Positions 3,154 through 24,642 of a stretch of DNA of 35,427 nt are shown in pieces. The stretch's first letter is position 1. The number at the start of each line of letters is the position of its first letter. Position numbers and translations under genes: made by a program. Under the pieces are notes generated by a model. That model ran no database searches. It had not been told where the DNA came from and worked only from the letters and a program-made list of their open reading frames with translations. Source of the DNA: Prevotella sp. (GTDB lineage Bacteria > Bacteroidota > Bacteroidia > Bacteroidales > Bacteroidaceae); NCBI GenBank assembly GCA_017449025.1, contig JAFSKJ010000098.1, positions 1 through 35,427 on the forward strand, written 5' to 3'.

Positions 3154-5853
3154 ATGGAAATTGCAAGCAAGTACGACCCAACAGAGGTCGAATCGAAGTG
3201 GTATCAGTATTGGTTAGACCACAAACTTTTTTCCAGTAAGCCTGATGGGCGTGAACCTTACACCATAGTGATTCCCCCGCCCAACGTGACAGGTGTGCTG
3301 CACATGGGGCACATGCTGAACAACACCATTCAGGACATCCTTGTGCGCCGAGCCAGGATGGAGGGAAAGAATGCCTGTTGGGTGCCGGGCACAGACCATG
3401 CCTCAATAGCCACAGAGGCAAAGGTGGTGAAGAAGCTTGCTGCTGAAGGCATAAAGAAACACGACCTTACCCGGGAGCAATTTCTTGAGCATGCCTGGGA
3501 CTGGACACATGAGCATGGAGGAATAATCCTTAAGCAGCTGCGGCGCCTCGGTGCCTCGTGCGACTGGGACCGCACGGCATTCACCATGGATGACACGCGC
3601 AGCAAGAGTGTCATCAATGTGTTTGTCGACCTATACAACAAGGGTTACATCTATAGGGGCCTGCGCATGGTGAACTGGGACCCCAAGGCTCTGACCGCCC
3701 TCTCCACCGAAGAGGTTATCTATAAGGAGGAAAAGAGCCATCTCTTCCATCTGAAATATTATGTGGCTGATTCCATAGACCCCATAAGCCCCATAGGAGA
3801 TAATGTCATCCACCGCGACGAAAAAGGCTACTACGCCGTTGTTGCCACCACGCGCCCTGAGACCATCATGGGCGACACAGCCATGTGTATCAACCCCAAG
3901 GACCCGAAGAACCAGTGGCTCAAGGGGCGCAAGGTGATAGTGCCTCTGGTGGGGCGAGTAATACCTGTCATTGAAGACCGATATGTTGACATCGAGTTCG
4001 GTACAGGATGCCTGAAGGTGACACCAGCCCACGACACCAACGACTACATGCTGGGCAAGACCCACAACTTGGAGACCATCGACATATTCAACCCCGACGG
4101 CACCATCTCCGAGCAGTCGCCCATCTATGTGGGCATGGACCGCATGGAATGCCGCAAGCAGATAGCCAAGGATCTGCAGGAGGCTGGGCTTATGGAGAAG
4201 ATAGAAGACTATACTAACAAGGTGGGCTACTCTGAGCGCAATCCAGACACGGCCATAGAGCCCCGGCTCTCGCTGCAGTGGTTCCTGAAGATGGAGCACT
4301 TTGCCGAGATAGCCCTTAAGCCCGTCATGACTGGCGAGATGAAGTTCTATCCGGAGAAGTACAAGAACACCTATAAGAACTGGCTCGAGAACATTCAGGA
4401 CTGGTGCATCTCGCGACAGTTGTGGTGGGGACACCGCATACCGGCTTACTACTACAACGAGAACGACGACTATGTGGTTGCCTCTACTCGCGAAGAGGCT
4501 TTGAAACTGGCTCAGGAAAAAGATCCAAAGGTGACCGATGCCGACCTGCGCCAGGACGAGGACGCACTTGACACGTGGTTCTCGTCGTGGCTGTGGCCTG
4601 TGTCACTCTTCGACGGCATCAACAATCCCGGCAACGAGGAAATAAACTACTATTATCCCACTTCCGACCTTGTGACAGCCCCCGACATCATTTTCTTCTG
4701 GGTGGCACGCATGATAATGGCAGGCGAGGAGTATATGGGCAAGTACCCCTTCAAGAACGTCTATTTCACCGGTATTGTCCGCGACAAGCTTGGCAGGAAG
4801 ATGTCGAAGTCGCTTGGCAACAGCCCCGACCCCATAGAGCTGATAGAGAAGTTCGGGGCCGACGGCGTGCGCATGGGCATGATGCTCTCTGCTCCTGCCG
4901 GCAACGACATACTCTTCGACGAGGCTCTCTGCGAGCAGGGCCGTAACTTCAACAACAAGATATGGAACGCTTTCCGACTGGTCAAAGGCTGGAAGGTTAG
5001 CAGCGATGCCCAGCAGACAGGAGCCGAGCTGTTGGCCATAAAATGGTTTGAGGCAAAACTCAAGGAGGCTGCCATTGAGCTTGACGACCTGTTCTCAAAA
5101 TACCGCATATCAGAAGCTCTGATGGTGGTTTACAAGCTGTTCTGGGACGAGTTCTCCGGATGGTACCTCGAAATGGTGAAGCCAGCCTACGTCGACGGTC
5201 AGCAACAGCCTGTAAACGCCAAGACTTACGAGGCAACCCTCGATTCCTTCGACAAGCTGCTGAAGATGCTCCACCCATTTATGCCATTCATTACCGAGGA
5301 GCTTTGGCAGGCACTCTACGAGCGTAAGCAGGGAGAGAGCATAATGCGTCAGGAGCTGAAGCTTAGCTCACCCACTGCCGACGAGAAGATGCTGCTCGAC
5401 AATGTGGAGACCATCAAGCAGGTGGTCAGCGGTGTTAGAACGGTACGTGCCCAGAAGAATATTGCCAACAAGGAGAAAATGACGTTGCAGGTGGTTAACT
5501 CACAACTCAGCGGCCAATATGCCGATGCAGTAGTGAAGATGGCCAACCTGGAAACCATCACCCAAGTTAGCGAGAAGGACAGCACCGCCAGCACCTTCAT
5601 GGTGGGCATGACGGAGTATGCCGTTCCACTTGGCAATATGATTGACATCGACGCAGAGATTGAGAAGCAGGAGGCACAGCTCAAGCATCTTGAGGGCTTC
5701 CTGGCCGGAGTCATGAAGAAACTCTCCAATGAGCGCTTTGTGCAGAACGCACCTGAGCAGGTGGTGGCACTTGAGCGCAAGAAGCAGAGCGACGCCGAAG
5801 AGAAGATTGCCGCCCTGCGAGAGTCGATAGCTTCACTCAAGGGCACACGGTAG
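3154..5853 (+). CDS. valS: Valine--tRNA ligase
   Basis: This cytoplasmic class I aminoacyl-tRNA synthetase charges tRNA-Val. The 899-residue product is full length. It has the HIGH-type motif HMGH at residues 50-53 within [12 protein letters not shown], the [10 protein letters not shown] block, KMSKS at 549-553, the anticodon-binding region after it, and the C-terminal coiled-coil arm (about residues 830-897, rich in Glu, Lys and Leu). The editing (CP1) domain includes [12 protein letters not shown] and [12 protein letters not shown]. It starts 18-23 bases downstream of its predicted transcription start. Its last 21 bases overlap the end of ispE on the opposite strand. Confidence 0.98.
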
Positions 5854-12207: not shown

Positions 12208-12981
12208 CTATACTGCAATATCAACCCCCTCTTCAATGTCAATGCGCTTTTGACGGAGTCTGTGTTCCATCATTGCAATATACTCTTCATTACTGTCACA
12301 CAAGATAGACGCACGACGATGTTTTTTGGCTACGCTACCAGTAGTTCCAGAACCTGCCATTAGGTCGATAATTGTATCACCCTTCTTGGTGCTCATTAAT
12401 ATGATTCGCTCAAAAACAGCTTCAGGCTTCTGTGAGGGATGTCCTGTGCGTTCATTTTTCCCTACAAAACCTACTATTAGCGGGGCTTCTATCACGCTTG
12501 TCGGGCCAGGAATAAATCGCATTTTACCTTCATCAAACCTAAGTTCCTGCTCTGGATTGAGAAAGTTTTCTGGATGCAAGCTGGCTCCTTCTTTCGTGAA
12601 TTGTATGCAGGCATTCTGACTCGATCTCCATCCACGAATAACGGATGGACAATTCTTATAGAACCATGTTAGCCATGCTGTCATTTTGAATTTGTCAGGA
12701 GCAAAACGCACGTATGGACCTATGACTTCTGGGAATCCCCACAAATAAAGAATATCACTCGTTATTGCACTCTGATTGAGAAGCGTTCGTATAAATTCAT
12801 CATACTCGGCATCTGGCAACACTCCACCTATGCCCTTGTTATACCAAGGGTCAAGAATGCTTGTCTTGGCTTTTATACCATTCTCTATAAGCAACTTCAT
12901 GGAGTCTTTCACATCCATCGGAGGAAGTATGGCGACTCCCGATTTCTCTATGCTTTCTGCTATTGCTTGCTTTAAATTCAT
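12208..12981 (-). CDS. Type II DNA methyltransferase (beta-class, probably N6-adenine)
   Basis: The product has 257 residues. Catalytic motif IV comes first, as ILDPWYN around residues 43-48 (a DPPY variant with Trp in place of the second Pro). The target-recognition region follows, then FVGKNERTGHPSQKPE and motif I as IIDLMAGSGTTG around residues 198-209. This order defines the beta class, as in CcrM-like enzymes, and a D at the start of motif IV favours adenine N6 methylation. It starts 7 bases after the reading frame of the restriction endonuclease ends, so the two form an operon. The base composition is clearly more AT-rich than in the flanking genes, which suggests acquisition by transfer. 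The recognition sequence cannot be read from the protein. Confidence 0.88.
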   Translation of the reverse strand: MNLKQAIAESIEKSGVAILPPMDVKDSMKLLIENGIKAKTSILDPWYNKGIGGVLPDAEYDEFIRTLLNQSAITSDILYLWGFPEVIGPYVRFAPDKFKMTAWLTWFYKNCPSVIRGWRSSQNACIQFTKEGASLHPENFLNPEQELRFDEGKMRFIPGPTSVIEAPLIVGFVGKNERTGHPSQKPEAVFERIILMSTKKGDTIIDLMAGSGTTGSVAKKHRRASILCDSNEEYIAMMEHRLRQKRIDIEEGVDIAV

Positions 12982-12988
12982 ATATGTT

Positions 12989-14488
12989 TTATTTCAATAT
13001 TACAAATTCGTTGTCTATTAACCACTCAATCTTTTCCAAGATGTCTTTTGCTGACAATTCAATGTTAGGGAATTCTCTGTTGAAAGATTCTAATAGATTG
13101 GTTTGGCTCATACCCCAATTATTCGAGAATCCAGGCACATAGAGTATACCCTTTTCTTTGCTCACATTTATGGAATGGCCAAAATTGGCGATGCAGTCAA
13201 GGAGACAGTATTTTATAATGATGTCTCTGCGTTCCTCATTTATTGCATAATTATCATTGTTGAAGTCTAAAAGGTTTGCTTCTTTGCAAACACCAAGACT
13301 TCTGTAAATCTCTTCCTTGTTGTATCCTTGTGCTTGTAAGAAATATATTAGTTTTGCTTCAGTATTGTTTCATGCTAATATGGCATGTTCTATTTCAAGC
13401 GGTGTCAAGAAATCAATCTCCTGTAGTTCACGTCTGAATTTCACTGGGGCAGTTTTTACTTGAATAAAAGCTTTGGTTGTCTTCTTTGCCAGCATCTTTT
13501 TCAAATCACCGTTCAAAGAGGAGAAATATCCAGCACCATCCAGGTACTCAACAAATACAGCATTGGGATAAAACTTTAACGTTTGCTTACGAGAGGCATC
13601 TGTTTGATCTACAACTTTATGAGAAACGCTTCCTGAATCGCCGGCATAGAATTGGCACTGCACAAAAAGTTTCTTTCCTTCCGATTTTGAACGGAAAGGT
13701 ACTATGAAATCGTATTTACGGGCCTTGTCATTTTTCTTCTTCTTTATACCAAGCAACCCGTAAATATCTATGTCGTCAGTATTATAATCAGTTCCAGCAC
13801 TTAGCCCCCAATCAGCCATATAGGAACGAAGCTTGCGTTCTGGTTCATGACCTGCTTTAGCTGTAATTGAACCACGCGATTGGAAAATTGCTATTGAAGC
13901 CAGAAGATTTGAACTGTGTCCGGCTTCTTTCAGTTTGCAATATGAAGTGCCAAGAGAGTAGAGTTGTGACACATACTGTTTATCACTTAGTAAAAGGTCA
14001 AGATAAGATTTTAGTTGTGGGGCTAACATATCTTGATAGGCTGATAAAGACTCAAAATGCATGACAACTTTGTCCAAATCAAAAACACGCGGAATCTTTA
14101 TAAGTGTTATTTCCCCATTCTGACATGCAGGAATCTCGCCACTTTCAAATAATTTGTTTAATACGAGGGGATATTGGCATTTCAAATTATTATAAGTCTT
14201 TCCCGTCGATAGAAGTATGGCATTGAATACGTTTGCCAAATGGCTTTGAATATCATTAACCTGGCCTATACGGGTAGTAATATTCTCGGCGATATAATAC
14301 GAAGAGCATGTCTCTAATGTAGAAAAACTATTTGTATACTGAGACAAAGAATTAAAACCTTCTTCAAGCCCAGCTAAAACTTTTCCGAACTCAATGCTAT
14401 CTTTTATGTCACCAAGAGATGGTGTTATCCACCTGTCAAATTCAGACAGTTTCTCTTTTTCTGTATATATATGCTTATTAAGTTTCAT
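12989..14488 (-). pseudogene. Type II restriction endonuclease, interrupted by one in-frame TGA
   Basis: From the ATG at 14488 an open frame of 372 codons ends at TGA (13370-13372). The same frame then continues without any stop for 126 codons to TAA at 12989-12991, 7 bases before the methyltransferase start. Read through, it would be a 499-residue protein. The downstream part looks like genuine protein (AKLIYFLQAQGYNKEEIYRSLG, then KDILEKIEWLIDNEFVILK) but has no plausible start codon near its beginning. The 372-residue part contains KYDFIVPFRSKSEGKKLFVQCQF, a candidate PD-(D/E)xK-type core (D, then QxQ). The nuclease role is inferred mainly from pairing with the methyltransferase. It is either inactivated by a single nonsense change or still functional as a C-terminally shortened enzyme. 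Confidence 0.7.
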
Positions 14489-16211: not shown

Positions 16212-16297
16212 GCACTCTTTCAGAGTGCGTTCGTAGTGTTCCTACTTCCGCAAGTCCTTAGGACACTGCGGCATTGAGCGAAGACGCTTTCAGCGTC
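16212..16297. repeat. Cluster of three small hairpins after the polysaccharide operon
   Basis: Three stem-loops lie in tandem: GCACTCT/AGAGTGC (16212-16228), AGTGTTCCTA/TAGGACACT (16235-16267) with an inner CTT/AAG, and GACGCT/AGCGTC (16283-16297). The last overlaps the acyltransferase stop codon (16296-16298). The cluster may act as the transcription terminator or mRNA-end stabiliser of the minus-strand operon. A similarly built cluster ends the window. Confidence 0.6.
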
Positions 16298-17549
16298 ATT
16301 TCAACCTTAGGTCGAACAGTTTCTCCTTCAGCCACTCGCGCACGGGCAGGTCGTAGAGTCGGTAAGAACCGTATGCCACGAGGATGGCGAGGGTAAAGAG
16401 ACAGACCCCGACGGCGATGTGGGTAGACGCGGGCAGGTCGGGATGGCTGGCGTAGAAGGACATCTGGAAGTAGATGAAGGGATAGTGGGTGACGTATAGG
16501 GGGTAGCTGATGTGGCCCAGGAACTTGCAGACAGCCCGACCCTTTGCGCCGCTTACCTTGCTGCCTGCGCCGAAAGCCACAATGAGGGGAAAGCAGGCGA
16601 GAATGACAAAGGCTTCATAGAGGCCGTTCGTCCATAGCTGTTCCAAATCGGCACCACCCAGACGTGGCACGTTCAGCAGGATGATGACGGCCAGTGCACA
16701 CCACCAGAAACCGCCTCTCACACGGAAGTGCTGCAGGGTGAGCATCTTGCGGCCTCCGTCGGCACCGCTGAACATTCTCGACAACAGCAACCCCATGAAG
16801 AACGGATAACACAGGCGCGTGATGGCTATCTGCAAGTGCTCGGGTTCAAGACTCCAGCCGCCTATGACGGTATAGGGATAGCTGCGTTCGGCGTATGCGC
16901 CAAAGAGGTTGATGTTCAGGCAGAGCGTGATGGTAAGGCAGGCCGAGAGCAGCACGAACAGCGAGAGCATCCGCCGCTTGAAATGACGGATAACGATGGC
17001 GTAGAGCACGTTGGCAATGTATTCCCACATAAGCGACCACTGCGCATTGTTCAGCGGGTGCATCTCGCCCCAGCCACGGATGTCCAACGCCTTGGGGATG
17101 GGTATCAGCGTGAAGCCCCACAGCATCACCATCACCAGCATCCACCACGGCGTCTGGAGAATCGCCTCACAGCCGGGCATGTCGCCCTCGAAATAGAACA
17201 TCAGCGCACCAAACAGCGTACCGAACATCAGCATGGGGTGCAGACGCACCAACCTTCGTTTAAAGAAGGACCAAAGGCTTAGCTTTCCCCCCTCTCCCTT
17301 TGGAGAGGGGGATAGGGGGTGAGTCTTTTCCCACCTATCATCATACGCATAGCCGATGACGAAGCCGGAGAGTACGAAGAAGAAATCGACGGCCAGATAG
17401 CCGTGGTTTATGGGCTGGTCAGGCTCCATGTGATAGTACGTTTCCAACAGGTGGAATGCCACCACCAGCATGGCAGCCACGCCGCGCAGTCCGTCGAGGA
17501 TCTCATAGCGCGGCTTTGAGGCCAGGTAGAGAGCTATGCTGCGTTCCAT
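16296..17549 (-). CDS. Membrane acyltransferase, OafA/acyltransferase-3 family
   Basis: The product has 417 residues with about ten membrane helices. These proteins transfer acetyl or other acyl groups to sugars of surface polysaccharides in the inner membrane. The signature is near the N-terminus: EILDGLRGVAAMLVVAFHL (His and Arg of the active region), then YLAVDFFFVLSGFVIGY. Residues 76-89 (HPLSPSPKGEGG region) are encoded by a palindromic DNA element inserted in frame in the loop after this helix, before SLWSFFKRRLVRLHP. The start at 17549 (MERSIALYLAS) overlaps the flippase gene by 16 bases. It is the last gene of the polysaccharide operon and probably decorates its product. Confidence 0.9.
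   Translation of the reverse strand: MERSIALYLASKPRYEILDGLRGVAAMLVVAFHLLETYYHMEPDQPINHGYLAVDFFFVLSGFVIGYAYDDRWEKTHPLSPSPKGEGGKLSLWSFFKRRLVRLHPMLMFGTLFGALMFYFEGDMPGCEAILQTPWWMLVMVMLWGFTLIPIPKALDIRGWGEMHPLNNAQWSLMWEYIANVLYAIVIRHFKRRMLSLFVLLSACLTITLCLNINLFGAYAERSYPYTVIGGWSLEPEHLQIAITRLCYPFFMGLLLSRMFSGADGGRKMLTLQHFRVRGGFWWCALAVIILLNVPRLGGADLEQLWTNGLYEAFVILACFPLIVAFGAGSKVSGAKGRAVCKFLGHISYPLYVTHYPFIYFQMSFYASHPDLPASTHIAVGVCLFTLAILVAYGSYRLYDLPVREWLKEKLFDLRLK
17285..17322. repeat. Palindromic element inside the acyltransferase gene
   Basis: CCCCTCTCC (17289-17297), loop CTTT, GGAGAGGGG (17302-17310) is a perfect palindrome, flanked by further C and G runs. On the coding strand it yields PLSPSPKGEGG. 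The segment is a multiple of three long and keeps the gene open. It resembles the intergenic GC-rich repeat at 16121-16187 in style. Confidence 0.7.
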
Positions 17550-18880
17550 AACCCTTTTGCCTTTCCGTTTATGAGTTTGTGGAATTGAATGCGGTTGACT
17601 ATGAGTCCTGGCAGGTTGACGATGGTCATTGCCCAGATGAAGGCGGCTATGCTGTGTGTGGCTTTGGCGGTGAGCCATGCGGCGGGTATGAAAACGAGAG
17701 CTGCGGCCGAGGTGAATATGAGCTGCAGTCGCAGCTTGCCTATGCCGTTGATGAAGTAGCTGTAGCGCATGCTGTAGATGATGGTGAAGATGTAGGCAGC
17801 CATGGCTATGGTGACTGACATTGGTATTTCCACGTCGTCGCCTATCCATATATGGTAGGCGATGGGTGAGAGGCCGACCATGACGGCCATGGCTGCAACA
17901 ATGAGAAGGGTGAGCTTGTTGAGTTTCTTTGTAGCACCGCGGATCCAGTTGATGTCGCCGCGCTCGTAGGCATCTGTGGTGGCATTCCAGAATGGCATGC
18001 ACACCACTGTGAACACCACTATGAAGAGGCTGAAGTATCGATAGGCTATCTGGTATGGTGTGACCATGGCAGGCGTGAAGAGCTTCGATATGAGGAGGTT
18101 TGACGTGGCGAAGAGCACCACGCTGGCTATCTGCATTATGAAGAACCTGACTCCGAGGCTCATCACCTGCTTGGCCTCACTCATGTTGACCAGGCTGATG
18201 CTTGGGCGCAGGGTGGGGTAGAGCCATCCGAAGGTGATGGGAACGGCTGCCATGTAGGCGAGCAGCGGTGCGGCGGTGCCGGCAATGGCTATGTGCATGA
18301 GGGAGTGTGTGCCGGAGAGGTAGACGGCGTATGTGGCAATAAGTGTGAGCGTCTGTCCGGCGGCTATGAGCAGGTTGTTGACGGCTGGCATCTGCAGACC
18401 CATGTAGAAGTTGCCCACAAGCTTGAATATGAAGGTGGCACAGACCATGCATACGGTGACGATGAGTACGGCGTCGAGGTTGGTGACGACGTTGGCATCG
18501 ACATTGAAAAGGGAATAGGTGTCTGTGAGGTGGATGGCAAGAATCAGCACGAGCATGGTGGGGAAGATGATGCAGGTGAGCATGGCAAAGGTGGATGAGA
18601 CCAGTGTCCGTGCGCGCATGGTGTCGCCGTGGGCCATGTATGTTGCCAGCTTGTTTCGCAGTCCGTTGCCCAGTCCAATGTCCATGTTGTCTATCCAAAG
18701 TAGCAGGCTGCTGATGGTGAGCCACAGTCCGTTCTGGTAGTCGCCGAGGCATTTGAGTGTGAGTGGCACCATGAGTAGCACAACGACTGCCGACCATGCC
18801 TTGATGAAGAACGACATTATGACGTTCTTTCGCAGCAGGCTGCTGCGATGGCTGCTAATTTCCTGTTGTGCTGACGGCAT
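17534..18880 (-). CDS. Polysaccharide flippase, Wzx/MATE-like
   Basis: The product has 448 residues and 12 or so hydrophobic helices. It belongs to the MOP superfamily that flips undecaprenyl-linked repeat units across the inner membrane. N-terminal NVIMSFFIKAWSAVVVLLMVPLTLKCLGDYQNGLWLTISSLLLWIDNMDIGLGNGLRNKL is typical of Wzx-type flippases (a Gly-rich G.GLRN motif after the second helix). The start at 18880 overlaps the preceding fusion gene by 26 bases and its end overlaps the acyltransferase start by 16 bases, so the three are probably translationally coupled. The specific glycan is unknown. Confidence 0.88.
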   Translation of the reverse strand: MPSAQQEISSHRSSLLRKNVIMSFFIKAWSAVVVLLMVPLTLKCLGDYQNGLWLTISSLLLWIDNMDIGLGNGLRNKLATYMAHGDTMRARTLVSSTFAMLTCIIFPTMLVLILAIHLTDTYSLFNVDANVVTNLDAVLIVTVCMVCATFIFKLVGNFYMGLQMPAVNNLLIAAGQTLTLIATYAVYLSGTHSLMHIAIAGTAAPLLAYMAAVPITFGWLYPTLRPSISLVNMSEAKQVMSLGVRFFIMQIASVVLFATSNLLISKLFTPAMVTPYQIAYRYFSLFIVVFTVVCMPFWNATTDAYERGDINWIRGATKKLNKLTLLIVAAMAVMVGLSPIAYHIWIGDDVEIPMSVTIAMAAYIFTIIYSMRYSYFINGIGKLRLQLIFTSAAALVFIPAAWLTAKATHSIAAFIWAMTIVNLPGLIVNRIQFHKLINGKAKGLWNAA

Positions 18881-20906
18881 GTGGCGTGGGGTTGAAGTTG
18901 AGGCTTATCTTGTTCTGTGCGAAGATGGTTACGAAGAACAGTATCTGCAGGTTGAACACGAGGCTGAGCATCAGGTTTTCCTGATAGAACTGCAGTATCA
19001 GCAGCTCGGCCATATAGGTGTAGAGGCAGCAGCCAATGCTGTCGCCGTTGCGATAGAGACGGTAGAGCCATCCGGAGAGTGTGCCGTAGAAGGCTGCGAA
19101 GAAAGCTATGCCCTTGTAGCCGAAGTCTATGAAGAAGGGCTGGAAAATGGTGTAGACATTGGTGATGATGGGCACGTAGACAAATTCCTGCAGCTTCTGC
19201 TTGACAACGATGTCGCTGATGCCTAAGCGGTCGAGGAAGAGGTAGATGATTTCGAAGGTGTTGGTGCCGAACTGCGGCGTTATGTCGGCTGTGAGCTGGC
19301 AGAAGGCTACGGGTGGCGACAGGGCGTACATGGCCACGAATCCTAACAATGTCTCGTTTGTCTGGTAGTCGCTGTCCTGCTCTGCGCGCGCAAGGTTGAA
19401 AATGTAGAACAGCACGAGCACTATGGCGGCGAGTACGGCTATGGTGCGAACCCTGATGACGCGCCGCTCGAAGAGCACGAAGACGGCGCAGATGAACACG
19501 AAGAACATGGTGCCCTTCTCCATGATGGCCAGTGCGTTGAGCAGGCAGGCTACGGCGAGCCACACCACCTGCCATAGCGGTACCTTGGGGTGTGCCCAGA
19601 GTGCTACTATGAAGAGCGACTGGTTGATGACGTTGGAATAGTTGAGCAGTCCGAAGCCCTCGCCGTAGAGTGCCAGCAGCCTGACGCTGTTCATCAGGTC
19701 TTCGGTGCTGAACATGTTCACTATCTGCCACACGCGATAGACGTAGAGTGGAGTGATGACCATCGAGATAAGGAAGAAGGCGTTGAAGACGACGCGGTTG
19801 AGCGATATGCCCTTGCTGTAGTCGGAGGAGCCGTGGCGGGCCAGGTTGTAGGTGACGAAGGAGGTGATGCAGAATATGACCAGCCAGATGACCAGGGCGT
19901 TGTAGAACTGTGCGGTGATGGGGTAGAGCTCTGTCTGCAGTATGTAGTATAGCGACAGTATGCCAACCCAGATGCCCACAGTGAGTGTCCACGGCGAGAA
20001 CAGTCCTCCGAAGTCAAGGTTGGCTATCAGGTTGTGTGGCGGGCGAGGGCGCCCGCGTTCCAGGTTGTTCCACGCCCTGTTGCGCCACAGGTGGTGCCAC
20101 GTGCACAGCAGTGCGGCTATCAGGGTGAAGACTGCGAAGTAGACCCAGTGCCGCGGCGTGAGTGGCTGTAGCGGCCTGATGCTGTTCTTTACGGTTGTGA
20201 ACGATATGTTGCTCTTCTCTGTCAGGTATTCGGCGCGCGTGTATTCCTCCGAGGCATTGCGGTAGATCTGCCCCAGCTTCAGGTAGTTCTGCCTCAGGCT
20301 CTCGAGCATGTTCTTGTGCACCTCCGATGTCAGGTCCTGATGGGCATTGGCGTATGATGAGTATGCCTTCATGGCTTCCTGGTATTGCCTGTTGGCATCG
20401 TCGAGCCTGGCCTTGGCATTGTCGCGCATGGCCGCCGCGCGCCGGTGGCGGTGCATCTCTATGTGCTGTCGGAGGTTGGCCACCACGGTGTCGAGCATTG
20501 CCATTGCCACGTCGGGGTCGTGGTCGGCCACCTGTATGTCGAGCGTCAGTGCCTGGGTGTTGAAGTTGTACTTGATGTTTTCGCGCACCGTCTCTATGTC
20601 GCCGAGGTAGTGCTCGTAGTCGGTGCCGTACTTCTCGACCTTGGCGGCAGCTGCCTGCCGTATGAAGTCTTCCGACTTGAGTATCTTGTTGTAAATCTCC
20701 GCGTCGTCGGTGCCGGTGTTTCCGAAGCTGTAGGTGAGGTCACGCATGAGCGCCTTTACTTTGTTCATGCCTACTGCCAGGTCGGTGACCTTGTATTCGT
20801 CGACCACCTTCACCTGCGCCACATACTCGTTGTCAATGGTGTAGGAGTAAAGAAGGCCGCACAGTGCGGCTGCGAGGATGAAGATGGCGTACTTGGCCTT
20901 GCGCAT
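18855..20906 (-). CDS. Wzz-like chain-length domain fused to Wzy-type polymerase
   Basis: One uninterrupted 683-residue frame has two parts. Residues 1-275 look like a Wzz/PCP chain-length regulator: TM helix at about 5-24, a periplasmic part with long alpha-helical stretches (about 130-235), and a second TM at about 253-270 (HWVYFAVFTLIAALLC). After a basic linker (about 272-300), residues 305-665 have about ten TM helices with features of the oligosaccharide-repeat-unit polymerase (Wzy) group, including a large loop near 515-590 and YTIFQPFFIDFGYKGIAFFAAFYG near 585-610. It starts 7 bases after the separate Wzz-like gene. So polymerisation and length control would sit in one chain, in addition to a free-standing Wzz. 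The polymerase call rests on topology and the late motif. Confidence 0.75.
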   Translation of the reverse strand: MRKAKYAIFILAAALCGLLYSYTIDNEYVAQVKVVDEYKVTDLAVGMNKVKALMRDLTYSFGNTGTDDAEIYNKILKSEDFIRQAAAAKVEKYGTDYEHYLGDIETVRENIKYNFNTQALTLDIQVADHDPDVAMAMLDTVVANLRQHIEMHRHRRAAAMRDNAKARLDDANRQYQEAMKAYSSYANAHQDLTSEVHKNMLESLRQNYLKLGQIYRNASEEYTRAEYLTEKSNISFTTVKNSIRPLQPLTPRHWVYFAVFTLIAALLCTWHHLWRNRAWNNLERGRPRPPHNLIANLDFGGLFSPWTLTVGIWVGILSLYYILQTELYPITAQFYNALVIWLVIFCITSFVTYNLARHGSSDYSKGISLNRVVFNAFFLISMVITPLYVYRVWQIVNMFSTEDLMNSVRLLALYGEGFGLLNYSNVINQSLFIVALWAHPKVPLWQVVWLAVACLLNALAIMEKGTMFFVFICAVFVLFERRVIRVRTIAVLAAIVLVLFYIFNLARAEQDSDYQTNETLLGFVAMYALSPPVAFCQLTADITPQFGTNTFEIIYLFLDRLGISDIVVKQKLQEFVYVPIITNVYTIFQPFFIDFGYKGIAFFAAFYGTLSGWLYRLYRNGDSIGCCLYTYMAELLILQFYQENLMLSLVFNLQILFFVTIFAQNKISLNFNPTPHAVSTTGN

Positions 20907-20913
20907 GGGCTTG

Positions 20914-21975
20914 TCAGCTTAATATTTCCTTGTAGTGCCTGAAGGCAAGGATGGCGAGTCGCAGGCCTATGGCGAGCATGAGGAAGACGGCGAGTATGAA
21001 CACCTTTGGTGTGTTGGAGTGCTTGATGGGCACTGTGGCGTTTTGCAGTGTGGTAAAGGCGGGCATGCGCTCCTGCACGCGGGCGCGGGCCAGCTGGAGC
21101 TGTTCCACCACCTGTGTGTAGATGTTGAACTTCAGCTGCATGTCGTTTTCCAGGGCGTCCATCTTTGTCCTTACCGACTGTAGCATGGCGTCGCTGTTGG
21201 CGTCGCAGAAAGCGGCATATACGTGGCGTGAGTGGGCATATTCCTTCTCGGCCTCCTTCAGCAGCTGTTCCATGTATGCGGCGTCGTGGCGGGCCTTTCT
21301 TGTGCGGTACTGGGTGATGAATTCCTGCAGCTGGGTCATGACGGCATTGGCCATGGTGGCGGCGATGAGCGGGTCCTGATCGGTGAAGGTGATGCTTATG
21401 ACACTGGTCTTCTTGTCTACGTGGCAGAGTATGTTTCCGCCTATGGCCTTGCAAATGTCGAACTGCTTCTTTGTCAGGTAGAAGGGGTCGGGCTCGCTGC
21501 CGGCGGCACCGGCGGGGCCTCCCTCGTCATCGCCGCCCGTCATGGCTTTAATGGCGGCGCGCAGCCACTGTGCGGGGTATGACCACCACGTCTGCTTCTG
21601 GTGCATGGAAATGTACTCGCTGTAGGGCATGTCCTTTATCTTACCGTCCTTGGAGGTCACCTTTACAGGAAACAGCTTCACGAGGAATGCCGTTGACTCC
21701 ATGGCATCGGGGTAAATCTCCGGGTAGATGGCGTCGCCGTTGTTGCCGAACTTCATGTTCATTCCCACCATGCTTGCCAGCGATGAGATGTTTCCCGAGA
21801 ATCCGTTGGAGGTGTCCTCTGGTGCGAGCATGACTGCCGATTTGTAGATTCTGGGAATGCTGAATGCCACGACTACGGCCACGACGGCCGCAATGCCGCA
21901 CCAGATGCCCGTGGTTTTCTTGTCGGCGCGTATTATGCTGAGCACCTTGGGTACGTTTATCCTTATCTTGTCCAT
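20914..21975 (-). CDS. Wzz-like polysaccharide chain-length determinant
   Basis: The product has 353 residues. There is a TM helix at about 23-41 (GIWCGIAAVVAVVVAFSI), then a periplasmic domain beginning RIYKSAVMLAPE, a long helical middle (TMANAVMTQLQEFI through about residue 290), and a second TM near 325-345 preceded by the typical proline pattern (NATVPIKHSNTPKV). The protein lacks a C-terminal tyrosine-kinase domain. It modulates chain length during Wzy-dependent polymerisation in the inner membrane. A Gly/Ala/Asp-rich stretch (about 150-165) is unusual. It begins 42 bases after the export gene and is followed at 7 bases by the Wzz-Wzy fusion. Confidence 0.88.
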   Translation of the reverse strand: MDKIRINVPKVLSIIRADKKTTGIWCGIAAVVAVVVAFSIPRIYKSAVMLAPEDTSNGFSGNISSLASMVGMNMKFGNNGDAIYPEIYPDAMESTAFLVKLFPVKVTSKDGKIKDMPYSEYISMHQKQTWWSYPAQWLRAAIKAMTGGDDEGGPAGAAGSEPDPFYLTKKQFDICKAIGGNILCHVDKKTSVISITFTDQDPLIAATMANAVMTQLQEFITQYRTRKARHDAAYMEQLLKEAEKEYAHSRHVYAAFCDANSDAMLQSVRTKMDALENDMQLKFNIYTQVVEQLQLARARVQERMPAFTTLQNATVPIKHSNTPKVFILAVFLMLAIGLRLAILAFRHYKEILS

Positions 21976-22017: not shown

Positions 22018-24642
22018 CTATTTCATCAGGCTGGCCACGGTGGCAATCATGGTTGCTATCGAGGCTATGCCCGTGCCGAGTGCCACGGTCTCTGTGGTGC
22101 TCATCTTGTTCTGCACCTTTGCTGGCACCACAATCTCGCATCCCGGACGCACCTTGGTTTTCCTGCCCACCTTGGCCACGTCGCCGTTCATGTAGATGAT
22201 GTATGTCTGCCTCTTCTTTGCCTTGCTGCTGTATCCGCCTGCCTGGTTGATGTAGTACTTCACGCTGCGGTCGGCCTCGAATCCCACGGTGTTGGGGTAC
22301 ATCACCTCGCCGTTGATCTTCACCGTGCCGGTGTAGACGGGCACCACCAGTCTGTCGCCTTCGCGCAGCACCAGGTCGTAGTCGCTGCCAGGGTGCTCCA
22401 GGGCCTTGTCAAGCTCAATGCCCACGGGGTAGGTCTCGGGTATCTGCAGCTTCTCCTGCTGTGCTGTCATGCCAGCCTGTATCTCTCCGAGCGAGCGTCC
22501 GCTCTTCAGTGCCTGTTCCATCATGGTGGCCTCGTTCTGCTGTCGCTGCATCTTCACAGACTCCTCGTATCTCATGCGCTCTGCCTCGTTCAGCTTTCGC
22601 TCAAGGCGTGCGCCTTCCACGTATGCAATGTTGGTCACACCGCCGGCCTTCTTCACCAGGTCGCTGAGCCGCTCGTCTTTCTTGCTCAGGGTGTATTCGC
22701 CGCTGAAGAGCACCTCGCCCTCGATGGTCACGTTCTGCTGTTCGTTGTAGCCGGGACTCTTCCTGACGTACACCTCGTCGAAGGGCTGGAGGTGGAAGCC
22801 GCTCTCGCCGTCGATGACGAAGCCGTCCTTGAGCGAGAAGTTGAACGTGTTGGCGATGAGTGAGTCGGAAGAGGTGGCAAAGGGGTTGACAATGCGCCGC
22901 GACACAAACACGTTGACCATGGATGCCGTCTCCTTAAGGCCTCCGGCCTGTAGCACGAAGTCCTCAAGGGTTTCGTTGGCGGCATACTTGTACACGCCGG
23001 GGTACATCACCTCGCCGTGGATGCTCACCGTCTGCTCCACCTGCACCTCCTGCTTTGTGGGCACGAAGAGCACGTCCTCGTTCTGCAGGGGTATGTCGGC
23101 GGTCTTGCCCGACAGTATGCCGTCGATGTCGACGGCCACAACCTCCAGCGTGCGGTCAGGCTTCATGCGGTGCATCACGGCGTGGGCCGTGAAGGCATCC
23201 TCGGTCACGCCCTCGGCGTGCTCAATCAGTGTGCGCACGCTGTTGATGTTGTCGCCCAGCTGGTACTTGCCGGGGCGGAACACCGATCCCTTGACCTCTA
23301 CCATGTTCATGTAGCGTGGCAGTATGGAGTCTACGCTCACCGAGTCCTCGTCCTCCATGCGGAACGAGGCCATGTCGAACTCGTTCACCGTGTGTATGCT
23401 GTACTGCGTGCCCGCCTTGCGCGTCACGCGAACATTTTTCTTATAAGCATCGCCGGTAAAGCCTCCCGAGTACTTGAGCAGGGTGAGCAGGCTCTCGTTC
23501 TTCTTCATCTCGTAGAACATGGGGCGCTTCACCTTGCCGGTCATGTTGACCAGACAGTCGTAGGGTCCCACCACAATAACGTCGTTGTCGCCCAGGCGTA
23601 TGTTGCCGCTCTGCTTGCCGTTGAGTATGTAGTCGTAGACGTCGACGGTGGTTGCCAGCCGGTTGTTGCGGAACACCTTGATGTTTCGCAGCGTACCAAT
23701 CTCGTTGGGTCCGCCGGCCATATACAGGGCGTGAAACACCGATGCGAACGCCGACACCGTGTAGGTGCCGGGGGTCTCCACCTCGCCCATCACGTTGACG
23801 GTGATGGTTCGCGTCTGTCCTAACGACAGGCGTATCTTCGAACTCTGATAGCGTGAGCCGAGCTTGGAGCGCAGCTGGGCCGTGGCCTGACTCACGGTCA
23901 TCCCCGCTACCTGCACGGGTCCGAAGTCCTCGACGGCAACGAAACCGTCGGGGGTCACCGTTGCCTCAATGGTTCTCTGTGAGGCACCGTAGATGTCGAT
24001 GAAGACGGCGTCGCCGGGGCCGAGCACGTAGTTCTGGGGGGTGGCAATGTTCATGTTCGGCTCAAACGACAGCTCCTCGTTGTTGAAGATGTCGCGTCCG
24101 AACACCTTGCGCTTGTGCTTCTTCTCAAGCAGCTCCTTGTCGCGGAGGTAGTTCTTTATCACCATGCGGTCGTAGATGTCAAGCGAGTCGGGAAGCATGT
24201 CGTCAAGCTCGGTCTTCATGAAGCGCTTCTCCTCCTCCTCTTCAAGCTGTAGTTCGCGGCGGTTCTTGTTGTTCTGCTTGTTGCGTTGCGAACGCAGCTT
24301 GTCGTCCTTGAGCTTCTCCGTGGAGTTGTTATACTGGCTGTTGTTCCTGCGCAGGCGGGAGTCAATCTGCTCCTCGTCGGAGAGGGTCTTGTCCTTCACC
24401 GTTCCCAGTCCCTGTTCCTTCTCCAAGCGCTCGTACTTCTTCTTTACGCGGTTTATCTGGTCGATGTTCACTCCCTTCTGCACAAGCTTGCTCACAATCT
24501 CGGCCTGCGACGAGCCGTTCTTGTGCTCCTTCATTACAAACTTAATCACTTGCTCGTCGCTCATCGACTGGGCGTTCACCGAGGCAATGCTCATGGCGAA
24601 CATAAACAATATAATGTATAGACGTCTCATCATTTTTTGCAT
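22018..24642 (-). CDS. Wza-like polysaccharide export protein with multiple SLBB domains
   Basis: The product has 874 residues. A Sec signal peptide (MMRRLYIILFMFAMSIASVNAQ) is followed by a charged helical region (about 40-180), then the polysaccharide-export domain (YVLGPGDAVFIDIYG, about 205-285) and at least five SLBB repeats recognisable by V.G.V..PG.Y / GEVMYPGVYKYA / GEVLFSGEYTLS / GEVMYPNTVGFEAD. A C-terminal hydrophobic segment (about 850-872) closes it. Wza-type proteins form the outer-membrane channel for capsular or exopolysaccharide; this long form is usual in Bacteroidetes, whereas E. coli Wza has about 380 residues. It is the first gene of the operon. The ATGs at 24642, 24633 and 24630 are all possible starts. 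Confidence 0.92.
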   Translation of the reverse strand: MQKMMRRLYIILFMFAMSIASVNAQSMSDEQVIKFVMKEHKNGSSQAEIVSKLVQKGVNIDQINRVKKKYERLEKEQGLGTVKDKTLSDEEQIDSRLRRNNSQYNNSTEKLKDDKLRSQRNKQNNKNRRELQLEEEEEKRFMKTELDDMLPDSLDIYDRMVIKNYLRDKELLEKKHKRKVFGRDIFNNEELSFEPNMNIATPQNYVLGPGDAVFIDIYGASQRTIEATVTPDGFVAVEDFGPVQVAGMTVSQATAQLRSKLGSRYQSSKIRLSLGQTRTITVNVMGEVETPGTYTVSAFASVFHALYMAGGPNEIGTLRNIKVFRNNRLATTVDVYDYILNGKQSGNIRLGDNDVIVVGPYDCLVNMTGKVKRPMFYEMKKNESLLTLLKYSGGFTGDAYKKNVRVTRKAGTQYSIHTVNEFDMASFRMEDEDSVSVDSILPRYMNMVEVKGSVFRPGKYQLGDNINSVRTLIEHAEGVTEDAFTAHAVMHRMKPDRTLEVVAVDIDGILSGKTADIPLQNEDVLFVPTKQEVQVEQTVSIHGEVMYPGVYKYAANETLEDFVLQAGGLKETASMVNVFVSRRIVNPFATSSDSLIANTFNFSLKDGFVIDGESGFHLQPFDEVYVRKSPGYNEQQNVTIEGEVLFSGEYTLSKKDERLSDLVKKAGGVTNIAYVEGARLERKLNEAERMRYEESVKMQRQQNEATMMEQALKSGRSLGEIQAGMTAQQEKLQIPETYPVGIELDKALEHPGSDYDLVLREGDRLVVPVYTGTVKINGEVMYPNTVGFEADRSVKYYINQAGGYSSKAKKRQTYIIYMNGDVAKVGRKTKVRPGCEIVVPAKVQNKMSTTETVALGTGIASIATMIATVASLMK

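Follow-up and report, generated by a model that had tools for sequence, protein, structure and literature searches.

Research on bacterial surface-sugar synthesis has long asked how the chain-length regulator Wzz contacts the polymerase Wzy and at what ratio the two combine. Among the closest described systems is the WzzE:WzyE complex of enterobacterial common antigen synthesis, which is described in PMC10030265 as a ring of polysaccharide co-polymerase (PCP) chains with a Wzy-type polymerase inside it and the second transmembrane helix (TM2) of the chains facing the polymerase. In that account the two are separate proteins, with one kind of Wzz, bound non-covalently at a measured ratio of about 8:1, and the authors state that this arrangement invalidates the model of several Wzy on a Wzz scaffold (PMC10030265). 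For WzzB, a structure is described in which TM2 lines an empty chamber, and insertion of Wzy there was proposed (PMC7809406); according to a 2025 review, no Wzy structure has been solved by experiment (PMC12004945). Here we describe a stretch of Prevotella sp. DNA (contig JAFSKJ010000098.1, 35,427 nucleotides, hereafter the window) in which a Wzz-type protein, Wzz2, and a Wzy-type polymerase share one reading frame behind a separate Wzz gene, wzz1.

Compared with WzzE:WzyE, the polymerase of the window is joined to a second Wzz and its own first helix is missing. PCP-2a proteins such as Wzc, entries of which match the fold of the fusion, also carry an extra domain C-terminal of TM2, but that domain is described as a cytoplasmic tyrosine kinase (PMC7310880), whereas the window's is a membrane polymerase. 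KpsE, the PCP of the KpsMT capsule transporter, is the best fold and the best profile match of the Wzz module, but it was solved, by the title of its entry, in complex with KpsMT and not with a polymerase. The separate Wzz1-Wzz2-Wzy clusters of other Prevotella (36 distinct loci) have homologous parts in the same order, but with wzz2 and wzy as individual genes and with the first helix of the polymerase still present. The fusion is a case of known families in a new arrangement, and, judged from the aligned sequences, both the fusion and the loss of the polymerase's first helix are solid. We met with no description of a naturally occurring Wzz-Wzy fusion in the open-access literature searched, a search outside which most subscription papers lie.

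One reading frame holds a Wzz module and a Wzy-type polymerase

The fused frame (18855..20906, minus strand) starts with ATG and encodes 683 amino acids. It comprises a Wzz2/PCP module (residues 1-283; 20058..20906), a basic linker between Wzz TM2 and the polymerase motif FSPW (residues 284-301; 20004..20057) and a Wzy polymerase module (residues 302-659; 18930..20003), all on the minus strand. A complete, separate PCP-like gene, wzz1 (20914..21975, minus strand, 353 amino acids), ends 7 bases upstream of it; in Pfam and NCBIfam scans its product matched Pfam Wzz at E 0.001 (below the gathering score), and EpsF (2.6e-6) and BexC/KpsE (1.3e-4) below their cut-offs. Both frames had been reported in a first-pass annotation of the sequence, which read the longer one as a Wzz module followed by a Wzy polymerase, and the open reading frame list, the family match to TIGR04370, an AlphaFold2 model, fold matches in the PDB and the comparison with relatives all bear that reading out. 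The comparison set consisted of 34 distinct fused proteins (the window's counted) and 36 distinct separate loci, distinct meaning by polymerase-domain sequence. Because the frame is open across the Wzz/Wzy junction in all 34 fused proteins, and because the 32 others that were aligned are 33-56% identical to the window fusion, the latter is, on this comparative evidence, neither a product of chance nor a misassembly.

The N-terminal module is Wzz-like by fold and weakly so by sequence. In the AlphaFold2 model of the fusion, built with 33 fused sequences (pLDDT 79.5, pTM 0.73; residues 39-66 below pLDDT 50), TM1 (2-23) and TM2 (253-283) flank a periplasmic alpha/beta base and long helices at 131-188 and 195-230, the layout expected of a PCP, whose periplasmic domain of alpha/beta base and long helices is framed by two TM segments. 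Foldseek matched the model to 33 PDB chains at E ≤ 0.001, all of them from KpsE, WzzE, Wzc or WzzB entries (four, each chain I of a Wza-Wzc or Wzc entry, were taken as Wzc by length). The top match of the module was KpsE (8tsh, E 9.4e-7), and the WzzE chains of 8c0e matched the PCP part with a best E of 2.2e-5; a comparison with viral fold models gave 0 of 319 matches at E ≤ 0.001. A profile of 33 fused proteins likewise had KpsE as its best PDB match (E 5e-4), and Pfam Wzz was found at E ≤ 0.01 in 7 of 33 scanned fused proteins (best 6.1e-6), the window's not among them. With the modelled fold decisive over the weak Pfam similarity, the N-terminal part is a Wzz/PCP module, whose formation of rings and control of chain length are putative functions that come with PCP membership. 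Wzz proteins are described with a proline-rich segment ahead of TM2 and a glycine-rich segment within it (PMC7809406); by eye, the window's Wzz2 has PLQPLTP ahead of a TM2 without glycine.

The C-terminal half matches TIGR04370, the NCBIfam oligosaccharide repeat unit polymerase, over residues 302-659 with E 4.8e-46 and 157.5 bits, the family cut-off being 40, and the same family was matched at E ≤ 0.01 in 33 of 33 scanned fused proteins. The model has about 10 membrane helices beyond residue 304, plus Wzz TM2, in keeping with the polytopic character of O-antigen Wzy, which is given as 10-14 TM helices (PMC12004945). A model of a separate polymerase (pLDDT 75.1, pTM 0.78) matched nothing in the PDB (best E 1.0). 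We read the C-terminal half as a predicted Wzy-type polymerase that would polymerise lipid-linked repeat units. The two outcomes that the first-pass annotation had named as contrary to its reading, a C-terminal region from a non-polymerase membrane family and an N-terminal part lacking similarity to Wzz, did not occur. A segment of Enterobacteria phage HK620 (36833-37396), annotated as hkcF, oligosaccharide repeat unit polymerase, is 31.8% identical to fusion residues 484-672.

The polymerase has lost its first helix

The N-terminus of separate Wzy proteins is a hydrophobic stretch, after which [KR].GD.F[SA]PW usually comes. In 36 of 36 this hydrophobic first helix has no lysine or arginine (K/R) ahead of it and at least one after it, which by the positive-inside rule would place its N-terminus outside and its C-terminus inside; in five of these (L087, L076, L083, L081 and L078) the chosen start lies 4 residues inside a likelier start, and the extra residues add no K/R. 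The polymerase's own N-terminal TM helix, present in all 36 separate proteins, is absent from all 34 fused ones, and none of the 34 has a second hydrophobic helix in the stretch from Wzz TM2 to the motif [FSYKP][SA]PW that both kinds share. Along the sequence, its place is taken by Wzz TM2 (residues 253-283), which is predicted to run in the same direction, and by the basic linker. Since TM2 of Wzz2 runs the same way as the lost helix, the topology of the polymerase would be unchanged. Charges in the loops were counted in 33 proteins, with the large PCP domain (12.5 K/R per 100 residues) excluded, the sides assigned by the analyst and helix 520-535 taken as re-entrant to keep the large conserved loop outside; on that assignment the densities per 100 residues are 18, 9, 19, 56, 19 and 21 in predicted cytoplasmic loops and 3.8, 4.9, 0, 12.5, 6.5 and 0 in predicted periplasmic loops. 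Adjacent loops alternate in K/R density, in agreement with this topology, though one periplasmic loop (12.5) exceeds one cytoplasmic loop (9).

The helix-bearing, separate polymerase is probably the ancestral state, because polymerases inspected by eye from 12 of the 36 other TIGR04370-positive genomes of the phylum sample described below all start with a hydrophobic helix. We infer that Wzz TM2 occupies the place in space of the lost TM1, on the surface of the polymerase that faces the ring wall, and a swap of this kind fits what the geometry of a Wzz ring, taken from WzzE:WzyE, would allow.

The linkers of the 34 fused proteins are 15-32 residues long and hold 134 K/R against 66 aspartates and glutamates in total; counted from the most hydrophobic segment of TM2 to FSPW, the length is 32 residues in the window's protein, with a median of 20.5 among the 34. 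Being basic and variable, the linker may be exposed, and the chain might be cleaved there after synthesis, with Wzz2 and Wzy then acting as separate proteins. We consider this very improbable, as a polymerase without its own first helix would need Wzz2 for correct insertion, and no common motif was seen by eye in the listed linkers.

The fusion recurs across the genus with a conserved gene order

A first search found fused relatives in 6 of 59 other genomes and the same parts as separate adjoining genes in two (G009 and G019). Among 398 genomes of the Prevotella genus, 25 (the window's counted) carried the fusion and 32 a separate polymerase at E ≤ 1e-130, both counted by match span and not by an adjoining wzz2 confirmed in each of the 32. 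The architecture, a survey of which had been proposed in the first-pass annotation, recurs across the genus. In the contig scan, the hosts belonged to Prevotella, Xylanibacter and Hoylesella. Most were metagenome assemblies, and the titles of many mention rumen or foregut; isolates with the fusion were Xylanibacter ruminicola Ga6B6 and Hoylesella loescheii An865, and isolates with separate genes were X. caecicola, P. lacticifex and H. oralis. In 393 genomes of the order, a sample of a larger group, only the window's genome passed the strict threshold of E ≤ 1e-50. Among 247 sampled Bacteroidota genomes, TIGR04370 was matched in 37, and only the window's match lay in a frame longer than 600 amino acids, the 683-residue fusion, versus frames of 391-480 in the others. 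Long frames in G261 (764 amino acids) and G060 (579) were considered as further fusions and rejected, their DNA holding separate genes with overlapping frames; G276, examined alongside them, also has separate genes.

For the trees and counts, L091 was set aside, L053 (at a contig edge, no Wzz1) was kept out of the joint tree, and L098-L101 and L103 were dropped as repeats; L056 was left out of A2, and L087, L076, L085 and L078 out of A3. The order Wzz1, Wzz2, Wzy holds in every locus that shows all three (34 fused and 35 separate, L053 being cut by the contig end), and each of the 34 fused loci has a Wzz1 homologue upstream. A triple protein made by read-through from Wzz1 into the fusion was rejected, the 34 loci having neither a common frame (relative frame 0, 1 and 2 in 17, 7 and 10 loci) nor a common Wzz1 stop codon (TAA, TAG and TGA in 16, 12 and 6). 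Genes intervene in four separate loci (L085, L089, L090 and L075). Between wzz2 and wzy there is a flippase-like gene in L085 (3586-4914) and in L089 (3609-4940), and L090 has an equally long gap at that place; in L075, wzz1 and wzz2 are separated by 2.3 kb, and the frame 3992-4846 between them looks by eye like a glycosyltransferase. In L091 (5790-7074) the separate polymerase is in two overlapping frames, owing to a frameshift that is either genuine or an assembly error.

The polymerase tree requires at least three changes between the fused and the separate state, and so does a quick two-domain tree, in which 28 of the 34 fused rows, the window within them, form a supported clade. A single clade of all 34 is not rejected by the approximately unbiased (AU) test (p 0.468), and the fusion may have had one origin or several. 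The genes wzz2 and wzy overlap in 16 of 35 separate loci, so their frames could merge easily. The fusion might for this reason be one of convenience, in which overlapping wzz2 and wzy merged by few changes, possibly once, the polymerase helix was lost, and Wzz2 remained an ordinary Wzz that happens to be tethered, with no special stoichiometry. We hold this to be rather unlikely, because the fused state has been kept across proteins as diverse as those above (32 at 33-56%) and through exchange of the polymerase half, which suggests usefulness.

The two Wzz proteins diverge together, and the polymerase half appears to be exchanged

Correlations of pairwise distances in the fused loci (561 pairs) were 0.87 for Wzz1-Wzz2, 0.29 for Wzz1-Wzy and 0.27 for Wzz2-Wzy, even though Wzz2 and Wzy are here halves of one polypeptide, and the respective values in the separate loci (595 pairs) were 0.95, 0.90 and 0.91. 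By these distances, Wzz1 and Wzz2 diverge together in both kinds of locus, and the polymerase half departs from them in the fused ones. Single pairs show the same departure: L084 and L121 are 73% identical in Wzz1, 75% in Wzz2 and 38% in Wzy, and L034 and L111 are 55%, 31% and 73% identical in the same parts. The point at which identity shifts lies at about residues 275-305, the junction, in L034/L111, at about 210-270 in L084/L121 and at about 150-210 in L041/L122. In AU tests on quick trees, for groups picked after the distances were known, the Wzy data rejected the Wzz2 grouping (p 8.7e-6) and the Wzz2 data rejected the Wzy grouping (p 1.7e-51). From these comparisons, the fused gene seems to swap its polymerase half by intragenic recombination, either at the domain junction or ahead of it, and to retain the fusion.

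Alignment of ten loci has Wzz2 as a shorter, divergent paralogue of Wzz1, and many fused proteins of the main clade have hardly any sequence ahead of TM1 and lack the cytoplasmic tail that Wzz1 has. A script with a preference for ATG set the start codons, and the counts that follow tell whether an ATG was available. In 19 of the 34 fused genes (L032-L037, L039, L040, L042, L043, L045, L055-L057, L084, L114 and L121-L123) there is no in-frame ATG ahead of Wzz TM1, and TTG is the start; an ATG was available in 68 of 69 Wzz1 genes (the remaining one is truncated at the edge of a contig) and in 34 of 36 separate Wzy genes. As far as start codons can indicate, TTG-only starts fit a low dosage of the fusion.

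A mixed Wzz ring is the favored working complex

The first-pass annotation had reasoned that a covalent link fixes Wzz and Wzy at 1:1. For the working complex this is probably wrong, because in WzzE:WzyE, as described in PMC10030265, Wzy sits in the ring lumen at about 8:1, so that a ring made only of fusion chains would be hard to build. Such a ring could still be imagined with its polymerases around or below it, and with Wzz1 forming a separate export ring with the outer-membrane polysaccharide export protein (OPX), the gene of which adjoins wzz1; an older model, described in PMC7809406, indeed put several Wzy round a Wzz hub. We regard a homo-oligomer of this kind as improbable, given the ratio, the lumenal Wzy and the inward-facing TM2 of WzzE:WzyE, the authors of which call a scaffold with several Wzy invalid (PMC10030265).

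The other early suggestion, a mixed complex with the second Wzz, was the better idea; the constant presence of Wzz1 (34 of 34 loci) and its co-divergence with Wzz2 speak for it indirectly, and the make-up of the oligomer is a matter that we infer. A mixed ring is favored because Wzz1 is always kept, because Wzz2 tracks Wzz1 more than it does Wzy, and because 19 of 34 fusions have TTG-only starts. In the explanation that we prefer, the polymerase has become attached to Wzz2, the second member of a tandem pair of Wzz paralogues, by a helix swap, in which polymerase TM1 was lost and Wzz2 TM2 with the basic linker came to lead into the remaining polymerase. The working complex would be a mixed ring in which a single Wzz2::Wzy chain is one stave and Wzz1 makes up most of the rest; the polymerase would be held in the lumen, one polymerase per ring being favored, and chain length would be set by the Wzz pair, with the polymerase half selected to suit the repeat unit. 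To this explanation taken jointly (polymerase of an export cluster, helix swap, mixed Wzz1 ring with one fusion stave) we assign a probability of roughly 0.55, the ring and the packing of TM2 being its conjectural parts. A more specific version, which we put forward tentatively and at somewhat less than even odds, has about seven Wzz1 and one Wzz2::Wzy per ring, with the tether at the TM1 position enforcing one lumenal polymerase per ring and letting polymerase halves swap under a conserved Wzz pair by within-gene recombination.

Several observations weigh against the mixed ring or against the evidence marshalled for it. Separate loci show a Wzz1-Wzz2 correlation just as strong (0.95), which makes it no peculiarity of the fusion, and it could stem from joint transfer of neighboring genes; the low Wzz2-Wzy correlation reflects in part a few long-branched polymerases together with domain exchange. 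The window fusion and 14 other fused genes have an ATG start. The Pfam Wzz family (PF02706) matches the window fusion at E 0.015 and 16.1 bits, short of its gathering score (25.5); by eye, a glycine-rich stretch like the one described in TM2 of Wzz proteins is not obvious in the window's Wzz2. The 8:1 geometry belongs to enterobacterial WzzE:WzyE, and the authors state that the function of their purified proteins had not been confirmed (PMC10030265). Separate-gene relatives have two Wzz as well, so the second Wzz was not caused by the fusion. Finally, two Wzz of Shigella flexneri are described as competing via distinct Wzy sites, with two modal lengths as the result (PMC12004945), and two Wzz therefore need not share one ring.

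The Shigella case suggests a further explanation, in which Wzz1 and the tethered Wzz2, clearly distinct paralogues, would alternate on the polymerase, each at a site of its own, so that two chain lengths result and no mixed ring is formed. We find it quite doubtful, since a tethered Wzz2 is always at the polymerase and Wzz1 would be poorly placed unless it were in the same ring.

The fusion lies in a probable compact export cluster

Upstream of wzz1 lies the OPX gene (22018..24642, minus strand, 874 amino acids), with matches to Poly_export (8.1e-18) and SLBB (2.2e-40). Downstream, and overlapping the fusion, is a candidate Wzx-like flippase (17534..18880, minus strand, 448 amino acids, 11 hydrophobic segments), so named for its position and hydropathy; neither Pfam nor NCBIfam matched it at E ≤ 10, and a five-row profile of it had no match in the PDB at E ≤ 0.1. 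It is overlapped in turn by the gene of a membrane acyltransferase (Acyl_transf_3, 9.5e-31; 16296..17561, minus strand). No tyrosine kinase family was matched among these cluster genes in the Pfam and NCBIfam scans. By gene content and order, OPX, Wzz1, Wzz2::Wzy, the flippase candidate and the acyltransferase can be read as a compact Wzx/Wzy-type export cluster. Elsewhere in the window (12208-14488), a DNA methylase gene stands beside a gene with a weak DpnII-type endonuclease match (below the cut-off), perhaps a restriction-modification pair.

Significance

A natural covalent link between Wzz and Wzy, with TM2 at the place of TM1, would provide independent evolutionary evidence for a contact surface that has been inferred from low-resolution maps. 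The tether may make the protein more tractable for purification and structure determination than a loose complex is, and the occurrence of fused and separate relatives within one genus makes the effect of tethering testable. The fusion would thereby serve as a natural test of how Wzz and Wzy fit together.

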